Assembly (NCBI GenBank): GCA_028286465.1
Contig: JAQBRN010000027.1
Span: 1-42,720, forward strand
Origin: Parcubacteria group bacterium
GTDB taxonomy: Bacteria > Patescibacteriota > Minisyncoccia > Phycocordibacterales > Zambryskibacteraceae
Reading direction: 5' to 3'
DNA length: 42,720 nucleotides
A program made the position numbers and the translations under genes. Each line of letters begins with the position of its first letter. Position 1 is the first letter of the stretch. Below, piece after piece: positions 7,997 through 33,889 of this stretch. The notes under the pieces are model-generated. The model worked only from the letters and a program-made list of their open reading frames with translations, was not told where the DNA came from and searched no databases.

Positions 7997-8010
7997 TATA
8001 CGAAGATAAA

Positions 8011-8064
8011 ATAAAAACCCGTCACCGAACTGTGCGGAAGATATCCGTAGTTCGGGGCGGGTTT
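8011..8064 (-). terminator. long three-step terminator hairpin
   Basis: Nested stems AAACCCG/CGGGTTT, CCGAACT/AGTTCGG and GCGGA/TCCGT, followed on the minus strand by TTTTTATTTTATC. The TAA stop of the 62-aa gene (8063-8065) forms part of the outer arm. Confidence 0.75.
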
Positions 8065-8251
8065 AGCTCTTTGCTGATACGGGCGACTTCTGATTGGCAA
8101 CGATCTGGATTGCCTGCTCGGGAGTAAAGCCCGCCTCGATGAGAGCGTCATAGGACTTCTTCGAGAACTGGGCACCCAGTTTGAAGATCTGATCTTTCTT
8201 GAGCATGGTTTCAAGCAACTCGGTCAGCTGCTCCACTATTTCGTCGAACAT
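8063..8251 (-). CDS. small uncharacterised 62-aa protein
   Basis: MFDEIVEQLTELLETMLKKD... is mostly helical, with EAGFTPEQAIQIVA reading like a small helical hairpin or UBA-like motif. No SD is evident, but there is a TTGACA-18-TATTAC promoter about 40 bp upstream and a strong terminator overlapping the stop. In the chromosome before element insertion it would have been the gene just after ssrA. Function unknown. Confidence 0.65.
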   Translation of the reverse strand: MFDEIVEQLTELLETMLKKDQIFKLGAQFSKKSYDALIEAGFTPEQAIQIVANQKSPVSAKS

Positions 8252-8290
8252 TGATGGCTCGCTTGCGAGGGGAAAGGAACGACTCTCAGA

Positions 8291-8320
8291 GTAATAGCAT
8301 TAAGGCATTAATAATGTCAA
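8291..8320 (-). promoter_or_regulatory. promoter of the 62-aa gene
   Basis: On the minus strand TTGACA (8320-8315), 18 nt, TATTAC (8296-8291). Confidence 0.55.
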
Positions 8321-8369
8321 ATATTACTGGAGTGAATGGTTTGGTCACGAATAATTTTCCACTCGCACG

Positions 8370-8390
8370 CAAAAAGCGCCCGAAGGCGCT
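8370..8390 (-). terminator. orphaned tmRNA terminator
   Basis: AGCGCC-TTCG-GGCGCT followed by TTTTG on the minus strand. No minus-strand gene now ends here. If the 8405-15045 element is removed, the tmRNA 3' end (CACCTCCAC) lies about 15 nt upstream of this hairpin, so it is best read as the original ssrA terminator separated by the insertion. It is enclosed by a 10-bp inverted repeat (CCACTCGCAC, 8359-8368; GTGCGAGTGG, 8399-8408) whose right arm overlaps the att core. Confidence 0.7.
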
Positions 8391-8404
8391 CTCTGTTTGT
8401 GCGA

Positions 8405-8409
8405 GTGGA
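8405..8409 (+). other. attL core
   Basis: GTGGA at the left junction: chromosomal ...TGTGCGA on its left, element ...CATGGCGGGGG on its right. The likely crossover dinucleotide is GG at 8407-8408, the centre of the attP dyad. Confidence 0.72.
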
Positions 8410-8509
8410 CATGGCGGGGGAAACGTTGAACTGGCTAAAAGACTATCTTTCTGGCTTCTGGCGTTTTTATCAGCATAGCGAGAATCTTCAAAAAGCCCTT
8501 AATATATAA
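8405..8509 (+). other. displaced native 3' coding end of the serine recombinase
   Basis: This is the reading frame that joins the recombinase at GTG 15041 when the element is circular. It gives 34 codons, VDMAGETLNWLKDYLSGFWR..., ending in TAA (8507-8509), about 60 bp before a plus-strand terminator. In the integrated state it has no start signal and is cut from its gene. The restored protein would be 516 + 34 = 550 aa. The openness of the frame and the terminator after it are seen directly; that it is the native C-terminus is an inference. Confidence 0.7.
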
Positions 8510-8569
8510 GGATAAGGGGTGTTATAGGGGAGCACTGAGCCCGTATTTAACCCTTCCTACGTAGATAAT

Positions 8570-8600
8570 GGCATGAGCTTGCTCATGCCCCTTTTCTTTT
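8570..8600 (+). terminator. terminator downstream of the displaced recombinase tail
   Basis: GGCATGAG-CTTG-CTCATGCC, then CCTTTTCTTTT on the plus strand. In the circular element it would end the recombinase transcript; in the integrated state no plus-strand gene precedes it. Confidence 0.75.
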
Positions 8601-8769
8601 GCTTCTTTTCTTTTAAAACATAAGCTATACATACCCTTACCATCTTTGGTGTTTCTGACCTTAGTATCCGGATAAGCCTAAGTAGCGATATCGCGGTTAT
8701 GGTGCAAACTTTCGCAAATGTAAACCTCTTGCCAACCAGTCCTTGTGAAGGGCTAATTTGAAGTAGATA
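8600..8769 (+). promoter_or_regulatory. leader region with two adjacent palindromes
   Basis: The non-coding stretch before the 819-aa gene contains TATCCGGATA (8665-8674) and GCGATATCGC (8685-8694), 20 bp apart centre to centre, a layout suited to dimeric DNA-binding proteins. TATACA at about 8627 may be a -10. GTAGATAATGG occurs at the terminator (8561) and again at the start of the 819-aa gene (8763). Assignment as operators is inference. Confidence 0.35.
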
Positions 8770-11229
8770 ATGGGCATAATGTTAAATCGTATTAAGGGCT
8801 GGAATATTCCCAATAGAGTCAGAGCTTTACATCAGAGGCTGAAGGCATGGCTCGTTAAAACTTATAAACAGATAAGGTATCGATATAAACTCAGCTTCTG
8901 GGCGTGCAAAAAATTCCTAAGGCTCGGTCTGGTGATTCTTGGCAGATATATGGGGCTCGTCAGAAGAGTTCTGGTAGTGCTTGTAGCGTTGGGAGTCGGG
9001 GTGTTGGTAAATTATTTCGGAGGAGAGCATTTCACGGCTGATATTCTTAGTAATTTCTTGATTTCTGCCGGAGCGATGATTGGTGGAGTGATTGCGATAG
9101 TGTTCACTATGTCCATCTTTTTGCTTCAAAGTGCAGCTGATTTGTACTCCTCGCAATTCTTCGAGGTTTATGTGCATGATTGGAAGGAAAAGATAGTATA
9201 TTTTTTGGTCATTGTAATCACACTAGTCTTCTTTGGAGGGGGTTTATATATTGGCAGCTTAGGTGATATATCTTCTGGTATCAGCTCAAAATTTGTGCTC
9301 CTCTCCTTGCTTCTTATAGGTAGCACATTCGCGCTCATTGATTGGCAGTATAAGACTGTCCGCCAGAAAACAAATCCTGCCGAGGCCATTGCTTTCTTAG
9401 AAAGAGAGGCTACCCAGTTCCTTAAGAAACTACACTTGGATGCGCAGGCTATGGCGGGAATTATCAATGCCAGAGATGAATCGATGACACTCGAGGCCGC
9501 CTTAGCCACAACATATAACTATTTACTTCAGCCTTTTATAAAAAACTTAGATAAGCAGTTAGAAAACCTAGTAGCCATATCATTAAAGCTAGCTGATAGG
9601 CAGGAGGTGGACACGGCAAGAAGGGGATTCACTGCGGTACACAACATTTTGATAAATTTCCTTGATGTTAGAAAAACTTCATCATTGGCCATTCCTTCAG
9701 CAACGGTTTTTCTTGCCATTGAGAGCGATAGCCAAAGTTTCCTTGCCAAGAGCTTTGAACGCTTGAACAAGGCGGGAGAAAAGTTCATCCAAGAAAAGAA
9801 AGACGAAAGTGCGACATATATTCTTGATATATATAATTCTTTGGCGACAAAAGCCAAGGATATATCTTTTATCGGGCACACAAATGAGAACCCAATACTC
9901 GACCATATTATCGGCTATCTAAATTTCCTAGTAGAGATAGGTGAGCGTGCTGGAAATGTTGAGGTTGTGTATAGAGGAGCTTCTGTTTTAGGAAAGATAG
10001 CTATTATTGCTGTGAATAGTGGCTTACAGAGTACTTTATTTGGTTTACAGGAAAAGATACTGAAAATTGCCAACTTCGGTATCTTACAAAAACAGCTAGT
10101 GATTACGGATGAATGCGTTACATCTTTTCTTAACATTACAACAGCCACTTTTGGCAATGAAAGGATTATCAGGAAGCACGCCTTCGATGATTCCATAAAG
10201 AATATAGGTAAGATTTCAGCATCAATATCTCAACTGATAAGCACTCATTATTTGCCGGATGATTTCAGTAGACGGATTAGTATGAGTAAGGGCTATGACG
10301 AGTTTCCTAATCGATTAGCTGCTATTTTCAATCATTACCCGAAGGTTCAAGGTGAAAGAGAAAAAGCCCGTTATCGTAAAGACATCGTCAGCTTATTTGA
10401 GGAGATAGGAATGTCGCTGAGAAAACTTTCTGAGGACATTAAAACTTGTGACAGTACGCTTAATGATAGTGTGGGTAGGCTTATCTTTTACATTAATAAT
10501 CTCATAATTGAGCTACTGAGCGTTGATGATTTTAAGGGAGAGAAAGCTGAATTGCTGAGGCGACTTCACTGGAATATACATTTACCGTCATGGTTTGCTC
10601 ATAACGCAGAAAGTTTTGATGGAGGTTCCAATGCTTTTAATACTCTAACTGACTCAGTTGCTAAAACGGGAATCTTGGCGGCGGTGGAGCTTAAAGATAA
10701 AAAATTGGTCGAAGATTCCATTAGTTCAATTTGGTCTATAACAAAGCATGCCCTCGAGAAAACGAAAGATGGATATGGATATGATGAGCCAAGAGTGCTT
10801 GAGAAAGCGTGCTATCTAGGAATCATTGCTTTAAAAAATGGCTGGAATGATGTGGTTGAAATGCTTGGCATGCTCATATATGAATTTGAATATAAATTCT
10901 TCGAGAAATATTTAACAAACTTGCCTACAGGTATTGACCCACATAATCATCGGGTGATTGGGCTTCCGCAAGACAATCAGCTTTTTGTTGAATTATTGAG
11001 ATGGAGAAATGATTTCGAGACGGAGCGTTTTAATAGAACATTAGGAATAAGAGATGATGCGGAGGCGATGATGTATTCCGTAGTCGATGAAATAGACATT
11101 GATAGATTTATGTATGAAATCTGGGGTTCGTTTCCTGCTGATAGTAAAATCGAAGAAGAGATAGAACTTAAGCGTAAGACAAGTGCCGTTAAAAGATTTG
11201 TAGCAGTTCTGACCAAACGACCTAAATAA
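8770..11229 (+). CDS. large membrane protein, DUF2254-like N-terminus (element cargo)
   Basis: 819 aa. A basic N-terminus is followed by about four membrane helices (about 65-85, 95-125, 143-168, 178-195). The region GAMIGGVIAIVFTMSIFLLQ followed by YSSQFFEVYVHDW resembles the DUF2254 membrane family. The remaining ~620 residues look cytosolic and almost wholly helical, without a nuclease, ATPase or protease motif that I can recognise. Codon use is AT-rich, unlike the core genes. Start 8770 or 8779 (MLNRIKG); no good SD. It is the main cargo of the element, so a role in host or element fitness, such as exclusion or defence, is a guess from context only. Confidence 0.8.
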   Translation: MGIMLNRIKGWNIPNRVRALHQRLKAWLVKTYKQIRYRYKLSFWACKKFLRLGLVILGRYMGLVRRVLVVLVALGVGVLVNYFGGEHFTADILSNFLISAGAMIGGVIAIVFTMSIFLLQSAADLYSSQFFEVYVHDWKEKIVYFLVIVITLVFFGGGLYIGSLGDISSGISSKFVLLSLLLIGSTFALIDWQYKTVRQKTNPAEAIAFLEREATQFLKKLHLDAQAMAGIINARDESMTLEAALATTYNYLLQPFIKNLDKQLENLVAISLKLADRQEVDTARRGFTAVHNILINFLDVRKTSSLAIPSATVFLAIESDSQSFLAKSFERLNKAGEKFIQEKKDESATYILDIYNSLATKAKDISFIGHTNENPILDHIIGYLNFLVEIGERAGNVEVVYRGASVLGKIAIIAVNSGLQSTLFGLQEKILKIANFGILQKQLVITDECVTSFLNITTATFGNERIIRKHAFDDSIKNIGKISASISQLISTHYLPDDFSRRISMSKGYDEFPNRLAAIFNHYPKVQGEREKARYRKDIVSLFEEIGMSLRKLSEDIKTCDSTLNDSVGRLIFYINNLIIELLSVDDFKGEKAELLRRLHWNIHLPSWFAHNAESFDGGSNAFNTLTDSVAKTGILAAVELKDKKLVEDSISSIWSITKHALEKTKDGYGYDEPRVLEKACYLGIIALKNGWNDVVEMLGMLIYEFEYKFFEKYLTNLPTGIDPHNHRVIGLPQDNQLFVELLRWRNDFETERFNRTLGIRDDAEAMMYSVVDEIDIDRFMYEIWGSFPADSKIEEEIELKRKTSAVKRFVAVLTKRPK

Positions 11230-11241
11230 TAATTCATTTTT

Positions 11242-11580
11242 ATGAACCCATTTAAGACAACATCAAGGATAGTAAAACTTAGCATACTAGGCGTAATTAT
11301 GGTTATTGGAGTTATCGTTGCGCTAGGAATCAATAGTGGTGATTCATACAAGGGAGGATACGCTCCAGACGGAACATACTGTGACTACGGATATAGTCCT
11401 GATTTAAAGGCCTGTTGCGGAGATGATGATTATTCCTGTGAGGAGAGGGATTTGAAATTGGCTGGTTCGTGTTTGGACAAAGGAGCGACTGCACAATGTA
11501 ATGATGGCACTTGTAGCTACGCCAATAATCATGAGGGAGCTTGTTCTAGACATAGGGGCGTGGATTCTTTCTATAGATAG
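11242..11580 (+). CDS. membrane-anchored Cys-rich protein with DUF3761-like C-terminus
   Basis: 112 aa. An N-terminal signal anchor (about 12-30) is followed by an extracytoplasmic part with nine cysteines. The C-terminus, QCNDGTCSYANNHEGACSRH, fits the DUF3761 pattern of small secreted proteins. It begins 12 bp after the 819-aa gene, so probably shares its transcript. The paired cysteines suggest disulfides. No catalytic residues can be named. Confidence 0.78.
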   Translation: MNPFKTTSRIVKLSILGVIMVIGVIVALGINSGDSYKGGYAPDGTYCDYGYSPDLKACCGDDDYSCEERDLKLAGSCLDKGATAQCNDGTCSYANNHEGACSRHRGVDSFYR

Positions 11581-11633
11581 TTTCTCATTGCGAAAGTTTC
11601 GCCCCCTAGAGCTATATATCTAGAAGATACTCT

Positions 11634-11691
11634 CAATAGACTTCAATAGATGACAATAGATTCCCAATAGAATCCCTATAAGCTTCTATTG
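11634..11691 (+). repeat. iteron-like CAATAGA array, helically phased
   Basis: CAATAGA at 11634, 11644, 11654 and 11665 (spacing 10, 10, 11 bp, one helical turn) plus an inverted copy, TCTATTG, at 11685-11691. It lies in the gap between two convergent genes of the element. The phasing puts all four sites on one face of the helix, as in plasmid iterons or multi-site operators. Confidence 0.7.
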
Positions 11692-11739
11692 AAAGTGTGA
11701 AGCAACAGAATGGTAAATACACGCTCAACAGAGAGCTTT

Positions 11740-11785
11740 AGGGAGAGGGCGGGCGTACAGAAGTACCCGAGCATACCCCCTCCCT
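11740..11785. terminator. inverted repeat between convergent genes
   Basis: AGGGAG...CTCCCT with an inner GGGCGTAC/GTACCC stem, immediately after the minus-strand membrane gene. It lacks a clear U-tract on either strand, so terminator function is tentative. Confidence 0.4.
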
Positions 11786-11790
11786 TTATA

Positions 11791-12129
11791 TTAATCTTTA
11801 AGTTTCGTGGGAGCTGTTGATTTCGAGGCTGTTTTGAAGTTCGCAGGCCGAACTATGGTGAGGAGTACAAAGGCTCCTACAACCCCTCCTAACGCGCCCA
11901 GAAGCCCATCCTGTGTGTATCCATAGGCGCCTGCGCCAACTATTAATGCAAGCAGAAGTGTGTAGCCGAGCGCTTCGCCAAAGGAAAGACCCGCACTTCT
12001 TCCACCATCAATAAAAGCTCCTATTAATACAAGGACAACTGAACCCGTTAACCCGATTACCGCTCCATAAGAACCGCTTATGAAGAACCCAACACCTGTT
12101 GCTATAAAGATTGCCCAGAGATATTTCAT
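11791..12129 (-). CDS. small 4-TM membrane protein of the element
   Basis: 112 aa with about four hydrophobic, Gly/Ala-rich helices (about 3-20, 24-43, 56-71, 78-93) and a short polar C-terminus (NFKTASKSTAPTK). Family not recognised. It could be a holin-like or channel-like protein, but nothing specific shows this. It starts 22 bp downstream of a structured RNA that ends in a stem and U-run, so its expression may be controlled by read-through of that RNA. Confidence 0.7.
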   Translation of the reverse strand: MKYLWAIFIATGVGFFISGSYGAVIGLTGSVVLVLIGAFIDGGRSAGLSFGEALGYTLLLALIVGAGAYGYTQDGLLGALGGVVGAFVLLTIVRPANFKTASKSTAPTKLKD

Positions 12130-12145
12130 GTGAATTTTTTTAACG

Positions 12146-12277
12146 CAAAAAGCCCGCCACTAGGTGACCCGAAGGCCTACACCGGTTTCCCGATGCAACG
12201 TCGTAAACGACCCTAATGACGGGGTTTCTGTTTACGACGCTTTGTTGCCATGCCAGTCCTTGCGGGCTGGTTTAGGC
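12146..12277 (-). ncRNA. candidate structured RNA with GNRA and UUCG hairpins
   Basis: On the minus strand a 7-bp closing helix (AGCCCGC 12268-12262 with GCGGGCT 12157-12151) encloses three hairpins. The first is a long stem, GCAAC + GTCGTAAAC with GTTTACGAC + GTTGC (5-nt bulge), with an inner ACCC/GGGT. The second is CGG-GAAA-CCG. The third is GGCC-TTCG-GGTC. TTTTTGCG follows the closing helix. A TGG-TAAATT extended -10 lies just upstream (12289-12284). It could be a free RNA or the 5' leader of the membrane gene at 12129. I do not recognise a known riboswitch or RNA family. Confidence 0.65.
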
Positions 12278-12353
12278 TCTTTCAATTTACCACATATCTA
12301 CAGCACCAAGAAGAGGGGGTTGTAGGAACATTACACTCGTGTATACTTTATAT

Positions 12354-13259
12354 ATGGTCGCTAAGAAGCAGAAACTAATGAAGGCAAAGAGCGATGAGTT
12401 TTATTACACATCGCCTGTCGAGTCTGTCCCTCCTAAAAGGTCTCCTATTAAATTCCAGCTCGCACGCTTAGAGATGGACAGCGATTTCTTCAAGAAGTAT
12501 TTCTCTCCAGAACATGAGGGCTTCAAGAGCATGAGGTTACTACTTAACAGGCGCGAATATACAGCAGGGGAAACGGGCATCAGCTCTCGGATTCTGAGTC
12601 ACTGGGCAGACAAGAGGATTCTTCCTGAGGGCTCGATGTTTTCCGGAGATAAGGTGGATTGGAAGAAGTTTTCTACTATCGAGATGGTGTGGTTAAGAGC
12701 AGTAGAGAAGATGAGGGAGTTCGGACTATCGCTCGAGAAGATAGCGAAAGTGCGGACATGGGTTATGCAGTGGCACAAAGAGAGCGAGAGCTATCCTTGG
12801 TTCGAGTACTTTGTTATCAAGTCGCAATACACGGCTGAGGATTTCAGTATTGTCATTCTGGCTGATGGTACAGCTGAGGTGGCTAGCTCATACGACCTTG
12901 AAGTAGATAAGTTTATGGAGGAGATGAGCAGGCATGTCCTTCTGATTTCACTGAAGAGCATCATGAAGGAAATAAGGTTTGGAAGCTCAGTGCCCCCTCA
13001 GGCTCTTCGGAGTCTTTCGCAGGGAGAAATTAATCTTGTGAAAGAAGCTCGAACGAGAGTGAACAAAGAAGTAAAGGCCACCGTGAGAGATGGTGAGATT
13101 CGAGAGATAGAAACAGTTCAGAACTACCCTGAGAGCCCTGATGTAAGCGAGATTACAAAGGAACTTCAGGAGTCAGGTGCATACGCAGAGGTCATTCAAT
13201 ACTTAGGAGACGGCGGAGTCCGTGGGGCGAGGGTAAGGCAAAGGAGGAGACAAAGATAG
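12354..13259 (+). CDS. MerR-like winged-helix DNA-binding protein
   Basis: 301 aa. Residues about 60-130 look like a MerR-type HTH: EYTAGETGISSRILSHWADK, then the wing and WKKFSTIEMVWLRAVEKMREFGLSLEKI. The C-terminal half has no recognisable effector domain and ends in a basic tail (RGARVRQRRRQR). TATACT (12342-12347) ends 6 nt before ATG 12354, and no SD is present, so it is probably leaderless; the GTG at 12339 in the ORF track would lie upstream of the transcript. It may regulate the element or, given the iteron-like repeats, act as a replication initiator. That second idea is speculative. Confidence 0.75.
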   Translation: MVAKKQKLMKAKSDEFYYTSPVESVPPKRSPIKFQLARLEMDSDFFKKYFSPEHEGFKSMRLLLNRREYTAGETGISSRILSHWADKRILPEGSMFSGDKVDWKKFSTIEMVWLRAVEKMREFGLSLEKIAKVRTWVMQWHKESESYPWFEYFVIKSQYTAEDFSIVILADGTAEVASSYDLEVDKFMEEMSRHVLLISLKSIMKEIRFGSSVPPQALRSLSQGEINLVKEARTRVNKEVKATVRDGEIREIETVQNYPESPDVSEITKELQESGAYAEVIQYLGDGGVRGARVRQRRRQR

Positions 13260-13356
13260 TTGTTTTGGCCATCAGCAACACCAGCTGGCGCCTTTACAAA
13301 AATCGATTAAGTCATCATGCATATGCACAGGCACTCAATCACAAGCGAAATAATGA

Positions 13357-13536
13357 ATGGTTCCTATAATCTCGGTCAAAGAATACCGCAAGGTTCTCAA
13401 CGACACCGAAACTCCAGAGGAGAAGGTTCTGGAGCGTCTCTTGTTTCTCGAATCTTTGTGTCGCAACGTAACAAGAACTGAACTACAAAATTATGCTAAA
13501 GAGAAATCTAAAGGAAATAAGCATCACCTCGTATGA
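13357..13536 (+). CDS. 59-aa ORF overlapping the recombinase start
   Basis: Too short for the ORF track. It reads MVPIISVKEYRKVLNDTETP... and is mainly helical and charged. It overlaps the recombinase by 44 nt in another frame. I have an impression of similar SVKEYRKVL-type small proteins beside CPR serine recombinases, but cannot verify it here. Codon choice looks normal for the element. It might couple translation of, or partner with, the recombinase, perhaps as a directionality factor. Start uncertain; ATG 13353 opens a different frame. Confidence 0.55.
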   Translation: MVPIISVKEYRKVLNDTETPEEKVLERLLFLESLCRNVTRTELQNYAKEKSKGNKHHLV

Positions 13537-15103
13537 CGGTAGAGAGGGAATTGTTTATGCGCGAGTATCTAGCAAAAGCCAAGAAACTGATGGTTCAGGA
13601 CTTCAGAGTCAAGAGGGTAGATGTCTTGATAAGCTACGTTCGTTAGGCGTGCCTTACACTAGAAGTTTCCTCGACAGCTTCACTGGTGGAGGAGACTTTA
13701 TGAATCGTCCTGCCATGAAGGCTTTGCTTGAGTATATCGATGCTCACCCCAACAAGAGATATGTAGTGGTATTCGATGACTTGAAACGCTTCGCCCGCGA
13801 TGTACAGTTCCATCTTGCACTTAGGTCAACTCTCAGAGCAAGGAATGTGCTGGTCGAGTGTCTCAATTATAAATTCGATGACAGTCCTCATGGAAAATAC
13901 GTGGAAGTAATACTAGCCGGTCATGCAGAGCTCGAGAGGGATGAAAATAGACGTCAGGTGATGCAAAAAATGAGCGCTCGCTTAAAAGCAGGATACTGGC
14001 CTTTTGGTAGCAAGAAGGGGTATGAAATTAAAAAGGTTGCTGGTCATGGGAAACTCGCAGTTCCAAAAGAGCCAGAAGCTACTCTGCTGAAGACTGCCCT
14101 GGAAGGTTTCGCTTCGGGCAAGTTTCTCAGAAAGATAGACGCTTGTGAATATCTCGTGATGGAAGGTTTCTGGAAGAAACAGCACCCTTCTAAATACATT
14201 GATAGGTTTGCGACCATGTTAGAAGACCCTTTCTATGCTGGTTATATTGAGTATCTACACGAAGAATGGGATGTTGATAGATGTAAGGGTCAACATGAAC
14301 CGATTATTTCCATGGAAACCTTTGAGCTTAATCAGAAGCGTCTTGGTAAGAATGGAGTAACAAAGACTGTACGGGCTGATGCGTCCGAAGATTTCTCTCT
14401 CAGAGGCCTGTTAATTTGTGCTCATTGTGGCAAGCATCTTACTGCGGCTTGGCATAAGGGTGGGAAGTATCCGTATTACTTCTGCCAGAATGGCTACTGT
14501 ACTCATAAGAGAGAATACATACAGCGCGACCTGGTTGAAGAGAGTTTTAGAAAGCTGCTCGGTGCTCAAAAGATGAAACCTGAACTGAGGAGTTTGTTAG
14601 AAATAGTCTTTGAAAAGGTTTGGTATGAGGAAGTAGAGACTTTCGAAAAAGCACAGCGTGCTCTCCATAAGGAGAGGAAGGATATTGAAGCCAAGATAGC
14701 GCAACTCGCTGATAGCGCCGCTGAGACTGCTAACTTCGCTGTAAGGCAAGCCTATGAGAAGCGGATTCAAGTCTTCACCAAAGAGCTCGAGAAGCTTGAA
14801 GAACCTGTAGTGAAGGCTGACACCTCCATAATTTATCGAACCGCTTTCGATAAATCTGTGGCACTTCTAGAAAACCCAGTAGTTGCATGGGACAACCTGA
14901 ACTTCCTCGAGAAACAACAGCTCTTCTACTTCATCTTCCAAGAGAAAATACCCTACGACAAGAAAGAGGGTTATAGAACCAGCAATATACGAAGCACGGT
15001 AAGGTTATTTGAGGAGTTTGTTGGTACAAACTCCCACGATGTGGAGGTGGGGAGATTGAACTCCCGTGCACGAGGATACGCAGAACGGATCTACAAGGCA
15101 TAG
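13493..15103 (+). CDS. large serine recombinase (integrase) with a target-encoded C-terminus
   Basis: 536 aa. The N-terminal resolvase domain has YARVSSKSQE (catalytic Ser), DSFTGGGDFMNRPAM and FDDLKRFARD. A recombinase domain follows (about 180-300), then a zinc ribbon (CAHCGKHLTAAWHKGG...YFCQNGYC), a long coiled coil (about 375-445) and the C-terminal end. The enzyme would integrate and excise the element by double-strand cleavage at att sites with a 2-bp overlap. The last 20 codons, from GTG 15041 on, are antisense to the tmRNA 3' end and therefore belong to the target. In the circle the frame continues into 34 different residues. Confidence 0.93.
   Translation: MLKRNLKEISITSYDGREGIVYARVSSKSQETDGSGLQSQEGRCLDKLRSLGVPYTRSFLDSFTGGGDFMNRPAMKALLEYIDAHPNKRYVVVFDDLKRFARDVQFHLALRSTLRARNVLVECLNYKFDDSPHGKYVEVILAGHAELERDENRRQVMQKMSARLKAGYWPFGSKKGYEIKKVAGHGKLAVPKEPEATLLKTALEGFASGKFLRKIDACEYLVMEGFWKKQHPSKYIDRFATMLEDPFYAGYIEYLHEEWDVDRCKGQHEPIISMETFELNQKRLGKNGVTKTVRADASEDFSLRGLLICAHCGKHLTAAWHKGGKYPYYFCQNGYCTHKREYIQRDLVEESFRKLLGAQKMKPELRSLLEIVFEKVWYEEVETFEKAQRALHKERKDIEAKIAQLADSAAETANFAVRQAYEKRIQVFTKELEKLEEPVVKADTSIIYRTAFDKSVALLENPVVAWDNLNFLEKQQLFYFIFQEKIPYDKKEGYRTSNIRSTVRLFEEFVGTNSHDVEVGRLNSRARGYAERIYKA
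15041..15045 (+). other. attR core
   Basis: GTGGA at the right junction: element ...CCCACGAT on its left, tmRNA 3' end (GGTGGGGAG in plus orientation) on its right. The GG at 15043-15044 matches GG 8407-8408. Confidence 0.72.
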
Positions 15104-15432
15104 TTTCGCTTGAAGTTTAAATCATGTTGCTAAAAGCAAAACGAAACACAACATAATCGAGCTCTGATCTTAGCTTCTGAAGTGAGCAGCTAGAGAAGTG
15201 GAGTCCCGCAGATGAATCGCTTCGAACCTCGTGCCGGACGGCGAAGAGGGAAACGTTCGTTACCCGAGTTTAAGCTCTGATGGTAGCGAAAGCGAAGTCG
15301 TTCGACGCAAAATACGGCGAACGAATTGCCTGTGCAGTTTTGATTGCACGTAAAGGGTCTCACAGATTTAGGAGTTATGAGTGCTCCGCCTTGCGCGTAG
15401 AGCGCATGTCTCGTGTCGATACTGACACCCCC
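15042..15432 (-). ncRNA. ssrA: transfer-messenger RNA
   Basis: tmRNA rescues stalled ribosomes with SmpB. The acceptor stem GGGGGUG (5', 15432-15426) pairs with CACCUCC (15049-15043, one G-U). TATCGAC near the 5' end and the T-arm GGGAG-TTCAAT-CTCCC fit the tRNA-like domain. The discriminator is A and CCA is not encoded. A possible tag frame ends ...SNDFAFATIRA then TAA; its resume codon is not certain and its end is unlike the common ALAA. Directly downstream of smpB on the same strand. A serine-recombinase element is inserted at its 3' end, so it now ends against the recombinase gene, and the original terminator is 6.6 kb away. Confidence 0.88.
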
Positions 15433-15453
15433 GTATATAAATTTCAAAGGTCT

Positions 15454-15891
15454 CTACAACTTTCTTTCGAGATCGCGTTCGGTATCCCGTTTCTTCAGCG
15501 CCTGCCGCTTGTCGAATTTCTTCTTGCCGCGCACGATGGCGATGTCGAGCTTCACGAACCGTCCTTTATTATACACCGAAATAGGCACGATTGTCAATCC
15601 TTTGGTGCCCTCGGCTTTAAGGAGATTCTCGAGTTCCTGCTTCGAGAGAAGGAGTTTCCGCGCCCGGATAGAGTCGTAGTCCGCAGGAGCATTCTTCGGC
15701 TGGTAAGCCTGGATGTCGGATCCGAGCAAAAAGGCTTCGCCGCCGCGTACCGAAACGTGCGAGCCTTGGAGAGAGACCTTGCCCTCGCGGACCGACTTGA
15801 CCTCCTGACCCGTGAGCTCGAGGCCGGCGGGGATCGTCTCGAGAATCTCGTAGTCAAAGTGGGCCTTTTGATTTTTCGCGTATGTAGTCAT
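15454..15891 (-). CDS. smpB: SsrA-binding protein SmpB
   Basis: 145 aa, normal length. It binds the tRNA-like domain of tmRNA and delivers it to stalled ribosomes. Typical blocks are AKNQKAHFDYEILETIPAG, LTGQEVKSVREGKVSL, YNKGRFVKLDIAIVRGKK and KKFDKRQALKKRD; the basic C-terminal tail (RDTERDLERKL) is what occupies the mRNA channel. It lies upstream of ssrA on the same strand with about 20 bp between them, so the two rescue components are neighbours. Start ATG 15891 has no clear SD. Confidence 0.96.
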   Translation of the reverse strand: MTTYAKNQKAHFDYEILETIPAGLELTGQEVKSVREGKVSLQGSHVSVRGGEAFLLGSDIQAYQPKNAPADYDSIRARKLLLSKQELENLLKAEGTKGLTIVPISVYNKGRFVKLDIAIVRGKKKFDKRQALKKRDTERDLERKL

Positions 15892-15954
15892 ACTTCTATC
15901 CGTCTATATATTAAGCATCATAGCAAATCCGCGCCTTTTAGATATAATGCATTC

Positions 15955-17928
15955 ATGGCACAGAAACCCTCACCGAAGGACAACCCTCAGAAGCAAGATA
16001 AGAACGCGAAGGATAAGGATCCGAAGAAGTCTCTAAGGGTCATCATCAGGAAAGTTCCGAAGGGCCCGAAGGGCTCGCTTTTGTCGCAGGCAGCGCTTGC
16101 GCTCCTCATCTTCCTTATCCTCGCCGGTTCGTATGCCTACCTTTCGGGCGGAGCGAAGCAAGATGAGACTATTTCGCTTTCTGAGCTTTCACAAAACGTC
16201 ACGTCCGGGAACATCACCGAGATCGACGTACGAGGCGACGACCTGACCGCCATATACAAGGACGGCACGACGAAGAAGTCGAAGAAGGAAGAGACCACCG
16301 CCCTGACCGACACACTAAAGAACTACGGCGTCTCTCCGGAAGCGCTCGGCAGGGTCAAGCTCGATATCCAGAATGCCCAAGGCTTCCTGTACTGGTTTGC
16401 GACGTTCGCACCGACGCTTCTCTCGATCATTTTCGTCATCTTCTTCTTGTGGTTCCTGACGCGCCAGGCCAAGGGTTCCGGCATGCAGGCATTCTCCTTC
16501 GGGCAGTCGAAGGCGCGCATGATCTCACCCGATGACAAGTCGCAGCGCGTCACCTTCAAGGATGTGGCCGGTGCGAAGGAAGCCAAGGAAGAATTGACGG
16601 AGATCGTCGACTTCTTAAAAAATCCTAAGAAGTTCCTCGACATAGGCGCCCGCATTCCGAAGGGTATTCTTCTCATGGGTGCGCCGGGCACGGGCAAGAC
16701 GCTTCTCGCGCGAGCCGTCGCAGGGGAGGCGGGCGTTGCGTTCTTCTCCATATCCGGATCCGAGTTCGTCGAGATGTTCGTCGGTGTCGGGGCAAGCCGC
16801 GTCCGCGACCTCTTCGATATGGCCAAGAAGAATTCTCCGGCCATTATCTTCGTTGATGAAATAGACGCCGTCGGACGCGTACGCGGAGGCGGCATGGGCG
16901 GAGGCAACGACGAGCGCGAGCAGACCTTAAACCAGATCCTCGTCGAGATGGACGGCTTCGAGCCCAATGAAAAGGTCATCGTCATGGCTGCCACCAATAG
17001 GCCAGATGTTCTCGATCCCGCGCTTCTTCGTCCGGGCCGTTTCGACCGCCGCGTGACGCTCGACCTGCCTGATCGGAGCGACCGCGAAGAAATTTTGAAG
17101 ATACATGCCAGGAAGAAACCGTTCGCCGAAGATGTGAACCTTGTCTTGATTGCAGAAAGGACTCCGGGCTTCTCCGGTGCCGATCTCTACTCGCTCATGA
17201 ACGAGGCCGCCATTCTTGCCGCCCGTGAGAATCGCACCAAGGTCTCGCAGTTCGATTTGATACGATCCATAGAAAAGGTCATGCTCGGGCCCGAAAGGCG
17301 CTCACACATTCTCTCGAAGACCGAGAAGGAGCTCACTGCCTATCACGAAGCCGGCCACGCGCTCGTCGCCTCGGTGCTTCCATATGCAGACGCGGTGCAC
17401 AAGATCTCGATCATCTCCCGCGGAAGAGCAGCCGGATACGTCTTCGCCCTTCCGGTCGAGGACAAGAAGCTTCAGTCGAAGAAGGAATTCCTCGATGACA
17501 TCGCCGTGTCGCTTGCGGGCTACGTGGTGGAGAAGATGCGCTACAATGACCTGACGACCGGCCCTTCAAACGATCTCCAGGTCTCGACCGCCCTTGCTCG
17601 CGACATGGTGACGAAGTACGGCATGTCCGAGAAGCTCGGTCCTATAGCGCTCGAAAGTTCCGGAGGCAAGCCTCTCTTCGGAGCGGGCGTCGACGGCAAG
17701 GAATACTCCGAGCGCGTCTCGGCTGAGATCGATGCGGAAGTTTCCGAGATCATGAACACGGCTATGAAGCGCGCCGAGAAGATCGTTACGGAGCATGGCA
17801 AGATCCTCGATGCCATCGCGCAGAGGCTTGTGGCAGTCGAAGTCATCGAGCAGAAGGAGTTCGAAGAGATCCTCATCGCTCACGGCATTCAGCCGAAGAG
17901 GAAGAAGGACGAGGAACTCAAGGTATAA
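15955..17928 (+). CDS. ftsH: ATP-dependent zinc metalloprotease FtsH
   Basis: 657 aa, membrane-anchored AAA+ protease for quality control. A Lys-rich N-terminus precedes TM1 (about 45-62), an extracytoplasmic domain and TM2 (about 140-160). The AAA domain has Walker A GAPGTGKT, Walker [12 protein letters not shown], the SRH region [21 protein letters not shown] and the pore motif [11 protein letters not shown]. The protease domain has HEAGH. The ORF-track start at 15280 is an artefact running over smpB and ssrA; TATAAT (15943-15948) ends 6 nt before ATG 15955. Its stop codon overlaps the TATAAT of the next gene. Confidence 0.97.
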
Positions 17929-18608: not shown

Positions 18609-18651
18609 ACTGTAATTATATATCTTTTTGGTTCGAGTATTTTTATACTTG

Positions 18652-18725
18652 TCCACCCGCTTGGATTCGAACCAAGGACCCCAGAGGTATAAGCTCTGTG
18701 CTCTAACCAGCTGAGCTACGGGTGG
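18652..18725 (-). tRNA. tRNA-Ile with anticodon UAU
   Basis: Full cloverleaf on the minus strand: acceptor CCACCCG/CGGGTGG, D-arm GCTC...GAGC, anticodon arm CAGAG-CTTATAC-CTCTG, T-arm CTTGG-TTCGAAT-CCAAG. The anticodon TAT reads AUA directly. Most bacteria decode AUA with a CAU tRNA modified to lysidine by TilS; UAU species are rare. CCA is not encoded (discriminator A, then CAAG). Confidence 0.93.
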
Positions 18726-19168: not shown

Positions 19169-21340
19169 TTATTCGAAATGGATCTTCGCTCCGGCCGCAT
19201 CGAGTCGCGCTTTGAGGAGCGGAAAGTGCAGAAGGTCGGGGTCATTTTCGATAATGTTCGTCGCTTCCTCACGGGCGGCCTCGACCATCTTCAGATTCTT
19301 GATAGCTTCCATGGCGAGGTCCGAGACTCCCCATTGCTTGCGTCCGTAGAGTTCTCCGGCGCCACGCTGCTTCAAGTCGAATTCGGCGAGTTCGAAGCCG
19401 CTTTTCGCAGTCTTCAGTGCTTTCAATCTTTCAACGGTTTTCTCGCTTGTGGTCTCGGCGAAGACGAAGCAGTACGGCTGGTGCGTACCTCTGAGGACGC
19501 GTCCCCGAAGCTGATGCAGCTGCGAGAGGCCATAGCGCTCGGCGCCCTCGATGAGGATGACGGATGCATTCGGCACGTTCACTCCGACTTCGACGACGGA
19601 CGTGGCCACTAAGATATCGATCTCTCCCTTGGTGAAGCGGGCCATCGTCTCTTCCTTATCCTTCGGCGTCATTTTCGAATGGAGAATGTCGATCTCGTAT
19701 TCGGGAAAGACCTTTTCCTTAAGTCGTTTCGCTTCTTCCTTCACGCTCTTTGCAAGGATCGCGCCTTCTTTATCGGGATCCGGTTCATTGATGCGCGGAC
19801 AGATGACATACATTTGTCGGCCGCTTGCGAGCTCGCGGCGCATGGCGTCGTACATGCCGGCACGCTTGTCCGGCGTCACGATCTCCGTGATGATCGGCTT
19901 TCTGCCCGCGGGCATCTGATCGAGGAGAGAAATGTCGAGGTCGCCGTAGAGGGTAAGAGCGAGCGTGCGGGGGATGGGTGTCGCAGTCATCGAAAGGAGA
20001 TGCGGAGTCGTCGCATCTTTCCCTGCGAGCTTTTGCCTCTGAGCCGTGCCGAAGCGATGCTGCTCGTCGATGATGGCCAGGGCAAGATGCTTGAACTTCA
20101 CCGACTTCTGGATAAGCGCATGCGTGCCGATAACGACCGATATCTCGCCGGACGCGACCCATTTCAATAATTGCGGGCGCGAGATCTGCGTCCAGCCGTT
20201 CGGATTGACCTTCGAAGGGAATTTCCTGACGGTCGTGCCCGTGATGAGGGCGATGTTGATGGGCAAAATACTGAAATACTTTATAAAGGATTCGAAATGC
20301 TGCTGGGCCAAGATCTCGGTCGGAACCATGTACGCGGTTTGGAGCGTGCCGAAGGTTTGGAGTTCTCCCTTGGCATTACGAGGGCGGGACGTGGTCACAG
20401 CGTAGGAAATAGCGGCTGCCACGGCGGTCTTTCCCGAACCAACATCGCCTTCAAGCAAGCGCGCCATGGGGTGCCCACGTTTGAAGTCTCCGAGGATCTG
20501 CTCGATCACCTTGAGCTGCGCCTCAGTCGCCTCGAAAGGGAAGTTGTTGATGAATTTGTTCAAGCTCTCCAGATCCTTTTCTATGACGAAGGCATCGCGC
20601 TTCTTGAATTCGTGCCTTGTTTTTTGCCGTTCGAGCTGGATGAAGAAGATTTCCTCGAAGGCGAAGCGCTTGCGTGCCGCTTCCGCATGTTCTTGCTTCT
20701 GCGGAGCGTGGATCCAGACAAGCGCGCTATGGAGCGTCGGCAAACTGTATTTCTTTAAAATGTCCTCGGGTATGGGGTCGACGAGGGTGTCGAGAATTCC
20801 GGAACCAAAGATGCTTTGAATCTTATGATAGATCCAGTTCGATGTCAGTCCGCGCGTTTCGGGATAGACCGGGTAGAGTGAGTGTTCTTCCACATCGCTT
20901 GCGAAAAGGGAATTGCCGACAGCAAGCGGGATCTTCGGCACGGCTTCGACTTTTGGATTGGAGAAATACAATTCCTCTTTTCTTTCACTGACTTTTCCTT
21001 CAACGCGTACGAACGATCCTTCGCCGAGCATCTTCGCCATGTAGGCCTGATGGAACCAGACGATCTTCATCCGGCCCGTTTCGTCCGCGACCCAGGCTTC
21101 CGACATGGGAATTCTCGACTTGTAGCCCTTGCTCGTTTTCAATCCGTTGATTTGTCCGAAGACGACGGCCTCGTCACCCTTTTTCAGGATTTCGATGTGC
21201 GTCACTTGAGCCGTGTCGCCGTAGCGCGCGGGGAAGTAGTAGAGAAGGTCTTCGACCGTGACGATCCCGAGCCGCTTCAGGGCGCTTGCCTGCAAAAAGT
21301 TCAAACGGGAGATGTCTGAGAGCTTATCACTTAATTTCAT
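19169..21340 (-). CDS. recG: ATP-dependent DNA helicase RecG
   Basis: 723 aa. Branch-migration helicase that remodels stalled forks and Holliday junctions. An N-terminal HhH/OB wedge region precedes helicase motifs I (LLEGDVGSGKT), Ia (MVPTEILAQQH), II as DEQH (IIDEQHRFG), III (MTATPIPRTLAL), V (LVATSVVEVGVNVPNAS) and VI (HQLRGRVLRG). TATACT (21353-21348) ends 7 nt before ATG 21340 and there is no SD, so it is likely leaderless. Divergent from the ncRNA promoter. Confidence 0.96.
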   Translation of the reverse strand: MKLSDKLSDISRLNFLQASALKRLGIVTVEDLLYYFPARYGDTAQVTHIEILKKGDEAVVFGQINGLKTSKGYKSRIPMSEAWVADETGRMKIVWFHQAYMAKMLGEGSFVRVEGKVSERKEELYFSNPKVEAVPKIPLAVGNSLFASDVEEHSLYPVYPETRGLTSNWIYHKIQSIFGSGILDTLVDPIPEDILKKYSLPTLHSALVWIHAPQKQEHAEAARKRFAFEEIFFIQLERQKTRHEFKKRDAFVIEKDLESLNKFINNFPFEATEAQLKVIEQILGDFKRGHPMARLLEGDVGSGKTAVAAAISYAVTTSRPRNAKGELQTFGTLQTAYMVPTEILAQQHFESFIKYFSILPINIALITGTTVRKFPSKVNPNGWTQISRPQLLKWVASGEISVVIGTHALIQKSVKFKHLALAIIDEQHRFGTAQRQKLAGKDATTPHLLSMTATPIPRTLALTLYGDLDISLLDQMPAGRKPIITEIVTPDKRAGMYDAMRRELASGRQMYVICPRINEPDPDKEGAILAKSVKEEAKRLKEKVFPEYEIDILHSKMTPKDKEETMARFTKGEIDILVATSVVEVGVNVPNASVILIEGAERYGLSQLHQLRGRVLRGTHQPYCFVFAETTSEKTVERLKALKTAKSGFELAEFDLKQRGAGELYGRKQWGVSDLAMEAIKNLKMVEAAREEATNIIENDPDLLHFPLLKARLDAAGAKIHFE

Positions 21341-30560: not shown

Positions 30561-32102
30561 ATGACTCAAGAGACCGCTCTCAATGTTTTAAAGACCGGCG
30601 CCAATGTCTTCCTCACGGGAGAGCCCGGATCGGGCAAGTCGCATACGGTCAATGCCTACGTCGCGTACCTGCGTGACCACGGCATAGAACCGGCCGTCAC
30701 GGCCTCGACCGGCATCGCGGCCACGCATATCGGCGGGCAGACCATCCACTCGTGGGCGGGGATCGGCATAGCAAGTTCACTCAGCGAGTACGACGTCGAC
30801 CGCATTGCGACGACCGAGTACATCGTGAAGCGGATCACGAAGACGAAAGTCCTCATCGTCGATGAAGTCTCGATGCTCCCGGCAGAAACGCTTAACTCTA
30901 TAGATAAAGTGTGCAAGGCGGTGAAGTTGAGTGAGGAACCCTTCGGCGGCATACAAATAGTCTTCGTCGGGGACTTCTTCCAGCTGCCGCCCGTGTCGAG
31001 GCAGAATGCGAAGATCGAATTCTCTTTCGCTGCATCGGCGTGGAAGAGTGCGAACCCTGTCGTCTGCTACCTGTCCGAACAGCATCGCCAGGAGGACCCC
31101 ATCTTCCTTGAACTTCTCACCGCTCTCCGCAGAAATGAGATCACTTCGGATCATAGAAATATATTAGACAGGCGGATCCAGGAAGACGAGACCTTCGACA
31201 TGAGCGAGGTCACGAAGCTCTTCTCGCACAACGAAGACGTCGACCGCTTGAATCACGCTGCCCTCGGCCAGGTGGAGGGGGACATGAAGGTCTTCCGCAT
31301 GGCGTCTTCCGGCCGCGATGCACTCGTCGCTCAGCTCAAGAAGGGCTGCTTGTCTCCGGAAGAACTATTCTTGAAGGTGGGAGCGATCGTGATGTTTACC
31401 AAGAACTCTCAAAACGGCTCGTATGTGAACGGTACCCTTGGAGAGGTTATAAGCTTCGACAGCGCCTCGCGCTATCCGATCGTGCGCACGCGAAACGGCG
31501 CGGAAGTCTGCGCTGAACCGGTCGAATGGGCCGTGGAAGAAAATGGTAAAGAGCTTGCATCCATTAAGCAGATCCCGCTTCGCCTGGCGTGGGCAATGAC
31601 CGTGCATAAGTCACAGGGCATGAGCCTCGATGCGGCGTATGTCGATCTTCGCTCGGCCTTCGTCGAGGGGCAAGGATACGTGGCGCTCTCACGCGTGCGC
31701 ACCTTAAACGGACTCTACCTCGCGGGCTACAACACCCGGGCCCTTGAAGTGCATCCGGAAGTGCTTGAGGAAGACGCAGAATTCAAAACATATTCAGCTG
31801 CAGTTGAAGTGCGCTTTGAAGCCATAAAGAAAGATGAATTACAAAAGCTCCATGACAACTTCGTCCTCGCATCAGGGGGTGTTATTCAGAAAAAGGAAAA
31901 GAAGATAAAGGGCCTCGATAAGAACGGCAAGCCCCTGCCCCCGAACGCCGGCAAGAAGTGGTCTGCCGAGGACGATGAGAAGCTGAAGGAAGAATTTAAG
32001 AACGGAGCTAAAATAGGCGCCCTGATGAAGCTCTTCGGGCGTAAAAGGGGAGGGATCACGATGCGGCTTGAGAAATTGGGGTTGATTGAAGTAACGGACT
32101 AG
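30561..32102 (+). CDS. PIF1-like SF1B DNA helicase with C-terminal HTH-like domain
   Basis: 513 aa. Motif I FLTGEPGSGKSHT, Ia ASTGIAATHIGGQTIHSW, II VLIVDEVSML, III FVGDFFQLPPV, then a UvrD_C_2-like end with AMTVHKSQGMSLDAAYVDL and GYVALSRVRTLNGLYL. Expected 5'-3' helicase acting on ssDNA ends, forks or G-quadruplexes. The last ~45 residues (KWSAEDDEKLKEEFKNGAKI...FGRKRGGITMRLEKLG) form a separate small helical domain, HTH-like and possibly DNA-binding. Extended -10 TGC-TAAGAT ends 6 nt before ATG 30561. Confidence 0.92.
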   Translation: MTQETALNVLKTGANVFLTGEPGSGKSHTVNAYVAYLRDHGIEPAVTASTGIAATHIGGQTIHSWAGIGIASSLSEYDVDRIATTEYIVKRITKTKVLIVDEVSMLPAETLNSIDKVCKAVKLSEEPFGGIQIVFVGDFFQLPPVSRQNAKIEFSFAASAWKSANPVVCYLSEQHRQEDPIFLELLTALRRNEITSDHRNILDRRIQEDETFDMSEVTKLFSHNEDVDRLNHAALGQVEGDMKVFRMASSGRDALVAQLKKGCLSPEELFLKVGAIVMFTKNSQNGSYVNGTLGEVISFDSASRYPIVRTRNGAEVCAEPVEWAVEENGKELASIKQIPLRLAWAMTVHKSQGMSLDAAYVDLRSAFVEGQGYVALSRVRTLNGLYLAGYNTRALEVHPEVLEEDAEFKTYSAAVEVRFEAIKKDELQKLHDNFVLASGGVIQKKEKKIKGLDKNGKPLPPNAGKKWSAEDDEKLKEEFKNGAKIGALMKLFGRKRGGITMRLEKLGLIEVTD

Positions 32103-32120
32103 ACTTGGTATTCTGGCCAT

Positions 32121-32846
32121 ATGAAGCTTATTTGCCTCAATACCTGGGGAGCCAGAACCGGAGAGCCCTTTTTCGAATTTATCAAGAAGCACGAGGATAC
32201 GGACATCTTCTGCTTTCAGGAAATATATGAAAATGCAGCAGAAAGAATGGCTGAGCGCTATCCGCAAGTAAGACATAACCTGCTTTCAGAGTTGAAGGCT
32301 CTTATGCCCGAGTATGATAACTACTTCCGACCAGCACTCTACGGAATGTATGGTCAGGCTCTTTTTATTAAGAAAGACATCAGGGTTCTTGAAGAAGGAG
32401 AAATCAGTATTCATGTTGGCAATGATCAACTTTCTCTGAGCGGACATCATGACAGGAACTTGCAGTGGGCAACGTTCGACAAAGATGGAAAGAAGTTCAT
32501 CCTCATGAACGTGCACGGGTTGTGGAACGGCAAGGGCAAGACAGACACGCCGGAGAGGATCGCTCAGTCGAGGAGGATCAGGGAATTCATGGACAAGGCC
32601 AAAGGCTCGAAGATCGTCTGTGGAGACCTCAATCTCGAACCGGATACCGAGAGCGTACGCATCGTAGAGGAAGGCATGAGGAACCTGATCAAGGAATACA
32701 GAGTGACTTCGACGAGGACGAGTCTCTATGACAAGGCCGGCCGTTTCGCCGATTACGTCTTCACTACACCCGATATAGAGATAAGGGATTTCAAAGTCCT
32801 GCCGGACGAGGTGTCCGATCATGCTGCGTTATTGCTGGAGATCTAA
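32121..32846 (+). CDS. endonuclease/exonuclease/phosphatase (EEP) family protein
   Basis: 241 aa. The EEP core is visible: LICLNTWGAR (Asn), FCFQEIYENA (metal Glu), MNVHGLWN, IVCGDLNLEPDTES (Asp/Asn pair) and DEVSDHAALLLEI (catalytic His). Substrate may be DNA or a phosphoester; not decidable from sequence. Extended -10 TGG-TATTCT ends 6 nt before ATG 32121; no SD. Confidence 0.88.
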   Translation: MKLICLNTWGARTGEPFFEFIKKHEDTDIFCFQEIYENAAERMAERYPQVRHNLLSELKALMPEYDNYFRPALYGMYGQALFIKKDIRVLEEGEISIHVGNDQLSLSGHHDRNLQWATFDKDGKKFILMNVHGLWNGKGKTDTPERIAQSRRIREFMDKAKGSKIVCGDLNLEPDTESVRIVEEGMRNLIKEYRVTSTRTSLYDKAGRFADYVFTTPDIEIRDFKVLPDEVSDHAALLLEI

Positions 32847-32882
32847 CCTTGTAATATTTCTATATTGTGGGAGAGTAAGCCC

Positions 32883-33203
32883 ATGAATAGACCGCTTCTG
32901 TATACAGCCGTAGCTCTAGTGACAGTCGGTTCTATTACTAGTATTTCTAAATCTGTAAGCACTCCTGATCCTACCGACATTGCAGTACAGCAGGCTTACG
33001 AAAATATTAATATTCTAGAGCATTCAAGGTCTCAGACTATGGATGTGGATTTGTACCACTGCAGTTTAAATTACTACAATTGCTCGGATCTCACTTCTCA
33101 GGCAGAAGCTCAAAAGGTTTTTGAAGCTTGCGGAGGTGCAATAAATGATATTCATAAACTCGACGCCGACCATGATGGAATTGCGTGTGAAAGCCTAAGG
33201 TAA
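32883..33203 (+). CDS. secreted protein with excalibur calcium-binding domain
   Basis: 106 aa from MNRPLLYTA; a signal peptide or anchor (about 4-24), then a C-terminal excalibur motif: NCSDLTSQAEAQKVFEAC ... LDADHDGIACESL, in which the Asp-rich loop DADHDG binds calcium in relatives. GGGAG lies nine bases upstream. AT-rich codon use marks the start of a second atypical patch. Confidence 0.8.
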   Translation: MNRPLLYTAVALVTVGSITSISKSVSTPDPTDIAVQQAYENINILEHSRSQTMDVDLYHCSLNYYNCSDLTSQAEAQKVFEACGGAINDIHKLDADHDGIACESLR

Positions 33204-33299
33204 GAAAATACTAAAACATTAGTATAATAAGTTACCGTATTTCTAATTAATCTACAGAAATGTATACCAAAGAAATTGCGGTATAGCAGTAGAAATATT

Positions 33300-33884
33300 T
33301 TAGAAAGCTTTCAAACGATCAATAGCCTTAAATAAGCTGGCCGATGATGTCTTCGCTCTCTCTGGATCCCAATGTTCGGAAACAAAACCACTCATTATAG
33401 AGTTATATAGGGGGCCCACGGAAGCTGTGCCTCCCAAGCGAGGAACCAGGTCAGTTTTCATTTTCTTTAGACGTGATTTTCTTGCGAGATTAACAATCAT
33501 CTCTTTTGGTTGTAGAATTGTGTCAGTCTGCTGTGGAAGTTTTTCAAAAGGGATTCTCAGAAAATCGGCAAAAGCCTCTCTGTCAGCTAAAATCCAAGAT
33601 TCTATTTCAGTTACGGCAAAACGAAATAGTAAGCGAGGGCCTTGTGGTGCAGACGCTAGCCAACTTGAAATTAATACCGCCGGACATTCCTGTTGATTAT
33701 CTAGGTCGGCCAACAAAAATATGTCTGTCGAGCTAGCGCTTCGATTTAGCTCAAGGGCTTTATTTTGAAGATATCCTCGACCCTTTTTGCCCAGCACTAT
33801 ACGTATGGTGATGTCAGGTCGAATAGAATTTACCAGCTTTCTGGCGACTGATTCGCTTAGAATATCTTCAACAGCAAGTATCAT
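33300..33884 (-). CDS. TOPRIM-like / DUF4276-like protein, partner of the AAA ATPase
   Basis: 194 aa. N-terminal AVEDILSESVARKLV has the acidic Glu of a TOPRIM fold, and FLLADLDNQQECP the DxD; TEIESWILADREAF is like the central motif of DUF4276 proteins. Starts 5 bp after the ATPase stop, so it is the second gene of an operon. AAA ATPase plus TOPRIM-like pairs occur in antiphage systems (PARIS; the single-chain OLD and Gabija GajA share the domains), with the TOPRIM partner as the nuclease effector. That role here is inference. AT-rich. Confidence 0.7.
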   Translation of the reverse strand: MILAVEDILSESVARKLVNSIRPDITIRIVLGKKGRGYLQNKALELNRSASSTDIFLLADLDNQQECPAVLISSWLASAPQGPRLLFRFAVTEIESWILADREAFADFLRIPFEKLPQQTDTILQPKEMIVNLARKSRLKKMKTDLVPRLGGTASVGPLYNSIMSGFVSEHWDPERAKTSSASLFKAIDRLKAF

Positions 33885-33889
33885 AGTAA

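Follow-up and report, generated by a model that had tools for sequence, protein, structure and literature searches.

The DNA analysed here, which we refer to as the window, is a stretch of 42,720 nucleotides that constitutes contig C28 of a 729,632-base assembly in 32 contigs, rated 96% complete. It carries a gene for tRNA-Ile with a genomically encoded UAU anticodon, flanked by ftsH and recG (Table 1).

Table 1. Coordinates of the tRNA gene and of the adjoining genes in the window.
Feature	Position	Strand	Basis and remarks
tRNA-Ile(UAU) gene	18651..18725	minus	ARAGORN and Rfam RF00005; A73 at 18652, C1 at 18725
Anticodon loop CTTATAC	18687..18693	minus	Sequence and ARAGORN; anticodon UAU at 18689-18691
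ftsH, upstream neighbour	15280..17928	plus	Pfam; 9 AUA codons; synteny in other UAU genomes
recG, other neighbour	19169..21340	minus	Pfam; 4 AUA codons; synteny

An initial annotation of this DNA had described a complete cloverleaf tRNA-Ile with the anticodon UAU in a CTTATAC loop, and ARAGORN and Rfam agree on this, adding the strand, which the annotation did not give. The Rfam tRNA model matches positions 18652-18725 with 68.4 bits (E 2.3e-15), all four stems are paired, the discriminator is A73 and the CCA end is absent from the encoded sequence. The gene has A73, U12-A23 and C4-G69, like E. coli tRNA-Ile, which we take to be identity elements of tRNA-Ile. Its acceptor begins with C1-G72, a pair common to the corresponding tRNAs of Nomurabacteria, Taylorbacteria and Kaiserbacteria; elsewhere in the phylum, UAU tRNAs mostly begin with G1-C72. 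When the tRNAs of the genome were compared pairwise, the UAU tRNA shared most bases with Ile-GAU (58, with identities that depend on gaps).

The annotation further held that AUA codons are used in the window and that the genome may lack TilS, and both points were borne out. Over 19 genes of the window, AUA accounts for 95 of the 533 isoleucine codons and occurs 12.2 times per 1000 codons; it is not avoided in these genes. Two profile searches of the assembly did not find the TilS domain (PF01171 and TIGR02432 both 0), while both profiles were positive in 14 of 14 control genomes. An Rfam search of the same genome gave 44 tRNA genes, among which ARAGORN read two isoleucine tRNAs, Ile-GAU and Ile-UAU, and only two tRNAs with a CAU anticodon, namely the initiator, with its mismatched first pair, and the elongator Met tRNA. 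A third CAU tRNA of isoleucine identity was not found among the 44, and therefore the genome offers no candidate for a lysidine tRNA. Thus tilS and a lysidine-type tRNA-Ile(CAU), the pair named in the annotation as evidence against direct decoding, were both sought, and neither was found in the assembly. Since the assembly is 96% complete, the case against a tilS gene draws in part on relatives, among them a genome of the same genus (G214, 100% complete) that has the UAU tRNA and neither TilS nor the IleRS tryptophan described below. The genome, although reduced, also carries two very different tRNA-His(GTG) genes (L002:1501-1575 and L021:1501-1572), both with discriminator C.

The distribution of the two systems was determined in 380 genomes of the phylum to which the window belongs, taken to be Patescibacteria/CPR on the strength of its genome sizes and of the named genomes with the same tRNA and gene neighbourhood. 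A strict UAU tRNA pattern was present in 229 of these genomes and TilS scored above the curated cut-off in 96, while no genome had both (0/380; Fisher P value = 8e-51, calculated without regard to phylogenetic relatedness) and 55 had neither at first scoring. The reversed control pattern matched none of the 380 genomes. Given this control and the occurrence of the same gene in most of the phylum, the UAU tRNA is no chance product, and the observation of tRNA-Ile(UAU) is confirmed. Under a looser pattern with hit-by-hit reading, 15 of the 55 gained UAU tRNAs, which have an unusual D-arm, T-arm or variable loop, bringing the final tally to 244 genomes with the UAU tRNA, 96 with TilS, none with both and 40 with neither found. 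The UAU tRNA is therefore the majority state in the phylum, and the rarity that the annotation had implied does not hold there.

For 36 of the 40 genomes with neither system found, an IleRS segment could be obtained (G258 yielded none that could be used, and G117, G169 and G296 were left out). The tryptophan that separates the two types, introduced below, is absent from 33 of the segments and present in three (G019, G102 and G129), which come from families that include TilS members; G019 and G129 each have a tRNA resembling tRNA-Ile2(CAU). With this tryptophan as a proxy, ~277 of the 380 genomes are of the UAU type. We had considered whether the 55 genomes initially scored for neither system follow a third strategy of decoding, and rejected this, as 15 have UAU tRNAs and the rest are typed mostly through IleRS. 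A covariance model built from UAU tRNAs discriminated poorly in genome searches, with Ile-GAU and Lys tRNAs scoring equally high. In one related genome, the initiator tRNA-Met (L119:575-1073, minus strand) is predicted to carry an insertion of ~430 bases, probably a group I intron, in its anticodon loop.

A single IleRS scores above the family cut-off in the genome (G000:C30:25187-28555, minus strand; L052:685-4056). Its nearest matches in the PDB are the bacterial IleRS of the 8c8w type (8c8w being, we take it, Priestia IleRS2) and of the Thermus type, followed by eukaryotic cytosolic IleRS, and it is IleS2-like, of the eukaryote-like subfamily. The annotation had suggested that the synthetase may be adapted to the UAU tRNA and proposed comparison with the Mycoplasma mobile type. 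In an alignment of 59 full-length Patescibacteria IleRS (30 of UAU and 29 of TilS genomes), the CxxCW motif of the C-terminal zinc region, the site of E. coli W905, is present in none (0/59). The W905/R865 site is thus missing, and therefore an adaptation of the W905R type, as in M. mobile, cannot apply and was ruled out.

An adaptation is supported in another form, as a different tryptophan has been lost in the anticodon-binding domain. One alignment column, at residue 928 of the IleRS studied here and inside the Pfam anticodon-binding domain (878-1021), splits the two types perfectly, with Trp (motif RRSRxRFW) in 29 of 29 TilS genomes vs none of the 30 UAU genomes. In 24 further genomes that had no part in finding the column, Trp occurs in 10 of 10 with TilS vs 0 of 14 with the UAU tRNA, giving 39/39 vs 0/44 for all genomes tested. 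Nearby gaps make it ambiguous in some rows whether the Trp was replaced or deleted; its loss is unambiguous. The IleRS encoded with our tRNA has Lys in this column, as do the eukaryotic cytosolic IleRS (human, yeast). The solved structures agree, with Trp in the bacterial IleS2 entries 1ile and 8c8w and Lys in the eukaryotic cytosolic entries. Eukaryotes decode AUA with a UAU tRNA (PMC8007984). Outside the phylum, two Ignavibacteria with the UAU tRNA and without TilS have Arg in the column, and a Chitinophagaceae genome and a Bacilli genome, each with both the UAU tRNA and TilS, have Trp. In an Actinosynnema genome, which likewise has both, the residue is Ala, and the Trp rule is therefore not universal outside the phylum.

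It is conceivable, though we judge it unlikely, that the loss of this Trp marks lineages, hitchhiking with the UAU state, and has no mechanistic tie to U34. On the IleRS tree the trait falls into clusters, and other C-terminal columns of IleRS also differ between the two types. We mapped both traits, the Trp and the decoding type, on an IleRS tree built without the C-terminal part. Each trait needs at least 12 changes, and the minimum changes coincide, which argues against mere hitchhiking. Only six independent pairs lie on well-supported branches, all of which agree (6/6; sign test P value = 0.031), and 12 are found on the best tree when weak branches are counted. That Arg occupies the site in the two Ignavibacteria, which lie outside the phylum, and Lys in the eukaryotic enzyme, which charges a UAU tRNA, likewise favours a mechanistic link between the residue and U34.

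Apart from the anticodon-binding domain, the IleRS has a histidine phosphatase domain (PF00300, E 2e-34) inserted at residues 496-672, in its catalytic half and with the RHG motif kept. The insertion is apparently common to many relatives of the same order and class and to a few others, and it occurs in IleRS of both UAU and TilS genomes; we found no report of it in the open-access literature.

UAU tRNAs were also sought among named GTDB genomes, which gave at least 115 matches, and ARAGORN read a tRNA with the anticodon TAT in 115 of 115. Among the 80 matches listed with names, most usable names are those of CPR groups, including Saccharibacteria, Woesebacteria, Uhrbacteria, Peribacteria, WWE3 and Dojkabacteria, and within a set of 50 matched genomes no CPR-titled genome had TilS above the cut-off. 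Outside the CPR, the UAU tRNA occurs without TilS above the cut-off in Ignavibacteria (L235, L280) and in Myxococcaceae and a deltaproteobacterium (L245, L249), which suggests that the lysidine system was lost independently in further lineages. It occurs together with TilS in Chitinophagaceae, Lacticaseibacillus, Actinosynnema and several Planctomycetes.

This coexistence would fit a view of the UAU tRNA as an accessory gene, of the type carried by phages or mobile elements, with a lysidine system missed in the unassembled 4% of our genome, and so would the proximity of a recombinase-bearing island of low GC content, which lies ~3 kb from the tRNA. In the 380 genomes of the phylum, however, the two systems never occur together, our genome lacks a CAU tRNA to spare, and its own IleRS does not have the lysidine-type Trp. 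Moreover, the tRNA sits in a conserved neighbourhood, adjoining ftsH, recG or both in 30 of the 115 matches listed, as it does in the window. Given the phylum-wide exclusion, the CAU set, the neighbourhood and the IleRS, we rejected the accessory-gene view, with its hidden lysidine system, as highly improbable. Named genomes that share the tRNA together with its gene neighbourhood include Taylorbacteria, Nomurabacteria, Kaiserbacteria, Adlerbacteria and others, and this conservation points to vertical inheritance of the UAU tRNA in widely differing lineages of the Parcubacteria type. To account for the IleRS trees, the UAU and TilS states must have switched several times, although IleRS itself may have been transferred between lineages.

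The island extends over positions 8000-15300 (37-48% GC vs ~55%) and ends just before ftsH. It carries a large serine recombinase (13493-15103) and an AUA-rich ORF of 819 amino acids with no Pfam match, and is probably a mobile element; no convincing direct repeat was found flanking it. A second stretch of low GC content (~44%) lies at 32000-34000.

The meaning of AUA was assessed in the IleRS genes of the 30 UAU genomes. At columns where these genes have AUA, relatives with TilS hold Ile in 28% and Met in 3%, while at AUG columns Met stands at 27%; the AUA columns resemble the AUC and AUU columns and differ from the AUG columns. AUA codons thus lie at isoleucine positions, so that the genetic code is unchanged and AUA still stands for isoleucine in UAU genomes. 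A reassignment of AUA, for instance to Met as is known from mitochondria, with the UAU tRNA charged with another amino acid, would accommodate the C1-G72 pair, unusual for a tRNA-Ile, yet the Ile-like AUA columns, the isoleucine-type A73, U12-A23 and C4-G69 of the tRNA, and the G1-C72 of most other UAU tRNAs of the phylum led us to reject it as the least credible of the alternatives.

We therefore consider it very probable that the encoded UAU anticodon pairs directly with AUA and replaces tRNA-Ile2(CAU) and TilS, in combination with a Trp-less IleRS, and that this is the default in most Patescibacteria. The elements of this proposal that are read from sequence are the tRNA itself, the lack of both TilS and a third CAU tRNA, the exclusion across the phylum, the loss of the Trp and the position of AUA at isoleucine sites. 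Mechanistically, tRNA-Ile(UAU) would pair with AUA through its genomically encoded anticodon and stand in for the TilS-lysidine route, and a single IleRS of the IleS2 type would charge both tRNA-Ile(GAU) and tRNA-Ile(UAU). The Trp would contact base 34, and its loss would presumably lift a discrimination at this base, in favour of G34 or lysidine and against U34. In Patescibacteria the ribosomes are smaller and the biogenesis factors fewer (PMC12641178), and therefore a ribosomal way of avoiding the misreading of AUG is possible, in which the ribosome might supply the discrimination between AUA and AUG. UAU decoding would be the default for most of the phylum, with repeated switching between the two states.

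Direct UAU decoding without TilS is known from 17-19 bacterial species (PMC4013482, PMC8450103), and a 2025 paper still presents TilS as highly conserved among bacteria and as a target for antimicrobials (PMC12514573). In the open-access literature, with subscription papers outside the search, we found no report of phylum-wide UAU decoding in Patescibacteria, of its exclusivity with TilS or of the IleS2 Trp switch; priority for the phylum-wide use and for the Trp switch is uncertain. Taken together, we favour as the likelier account that Patescibacteria by default decode AUA directly with UAU (~64% of genomes observed, ~73% by the IleRS proxy), with repeated switches between U34 and lysidine, that the IleS2 Trp gates base 34, and that the synthetase by itself reveals the decoding type. 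If most of this very large phylum indeed does without TilS, the picture of a conserved TilS and a rare UAU tRNA needs revising. The phylum offers many natural contrasts of the two systems together with a single candidate residue in IleRS, so that the question of how U34 reads AUA without AUG becomes directly approachable. Because UAU tRNAs occur in Saccharibacteria, cultured members of that group may be usable for this purpose.

The closest known case is the tRNA-Ile2(UAU) system of M. mobile, reportedly described by Taniguchi et al. in 2013 (NAR), in which Arg865 of IleRS is said to replace E. coli W905 and the ribosome is said to supply the discrimination against AUG. The U34 of M. mobile is unmodified (PMC4013482). 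The two systems share a genomic UAU anticodon, the absence of tilS and of tRNA-Ile(CAU), AUA as isoleucine and an IleRS changed at a former Trp. They differ in that the M. mobile enzyme is of the IleS1 type, with Arg865 for W905, whereas the IleRS here is of the IleS2 type, has no such site and has lost another Trp, and in that UAU decoding is found phylum-wide rather than in one species. The lysidine system of tRNA-Ile2(CAU) and TilS solves the same problem of reading AUA without AUG; both of its components are absent here, although it is still in use in about a quarter of the phylum. Eukaryotic cytosolic tRNA-Ile(UAU) has the same anticodon, which is modified to pseudouridines, and is served by an IleRS that belongs to the same subfamily and has Lys in the column that separates the two types. 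The eukaryotic anticodon is described as modified (PMC8007984). Loss of TilS was tolerated through a tRNA-Ile changed to UAU in the Bacillus subtilis tilS bypass, where, as Fabret et al. are said to have found in 2011, such a tRNA-Ile was recruited; that bypass is a laboratory suppressor, whereas the UAU tRNA of the Patescibacteria represents the natural state of a lineage.
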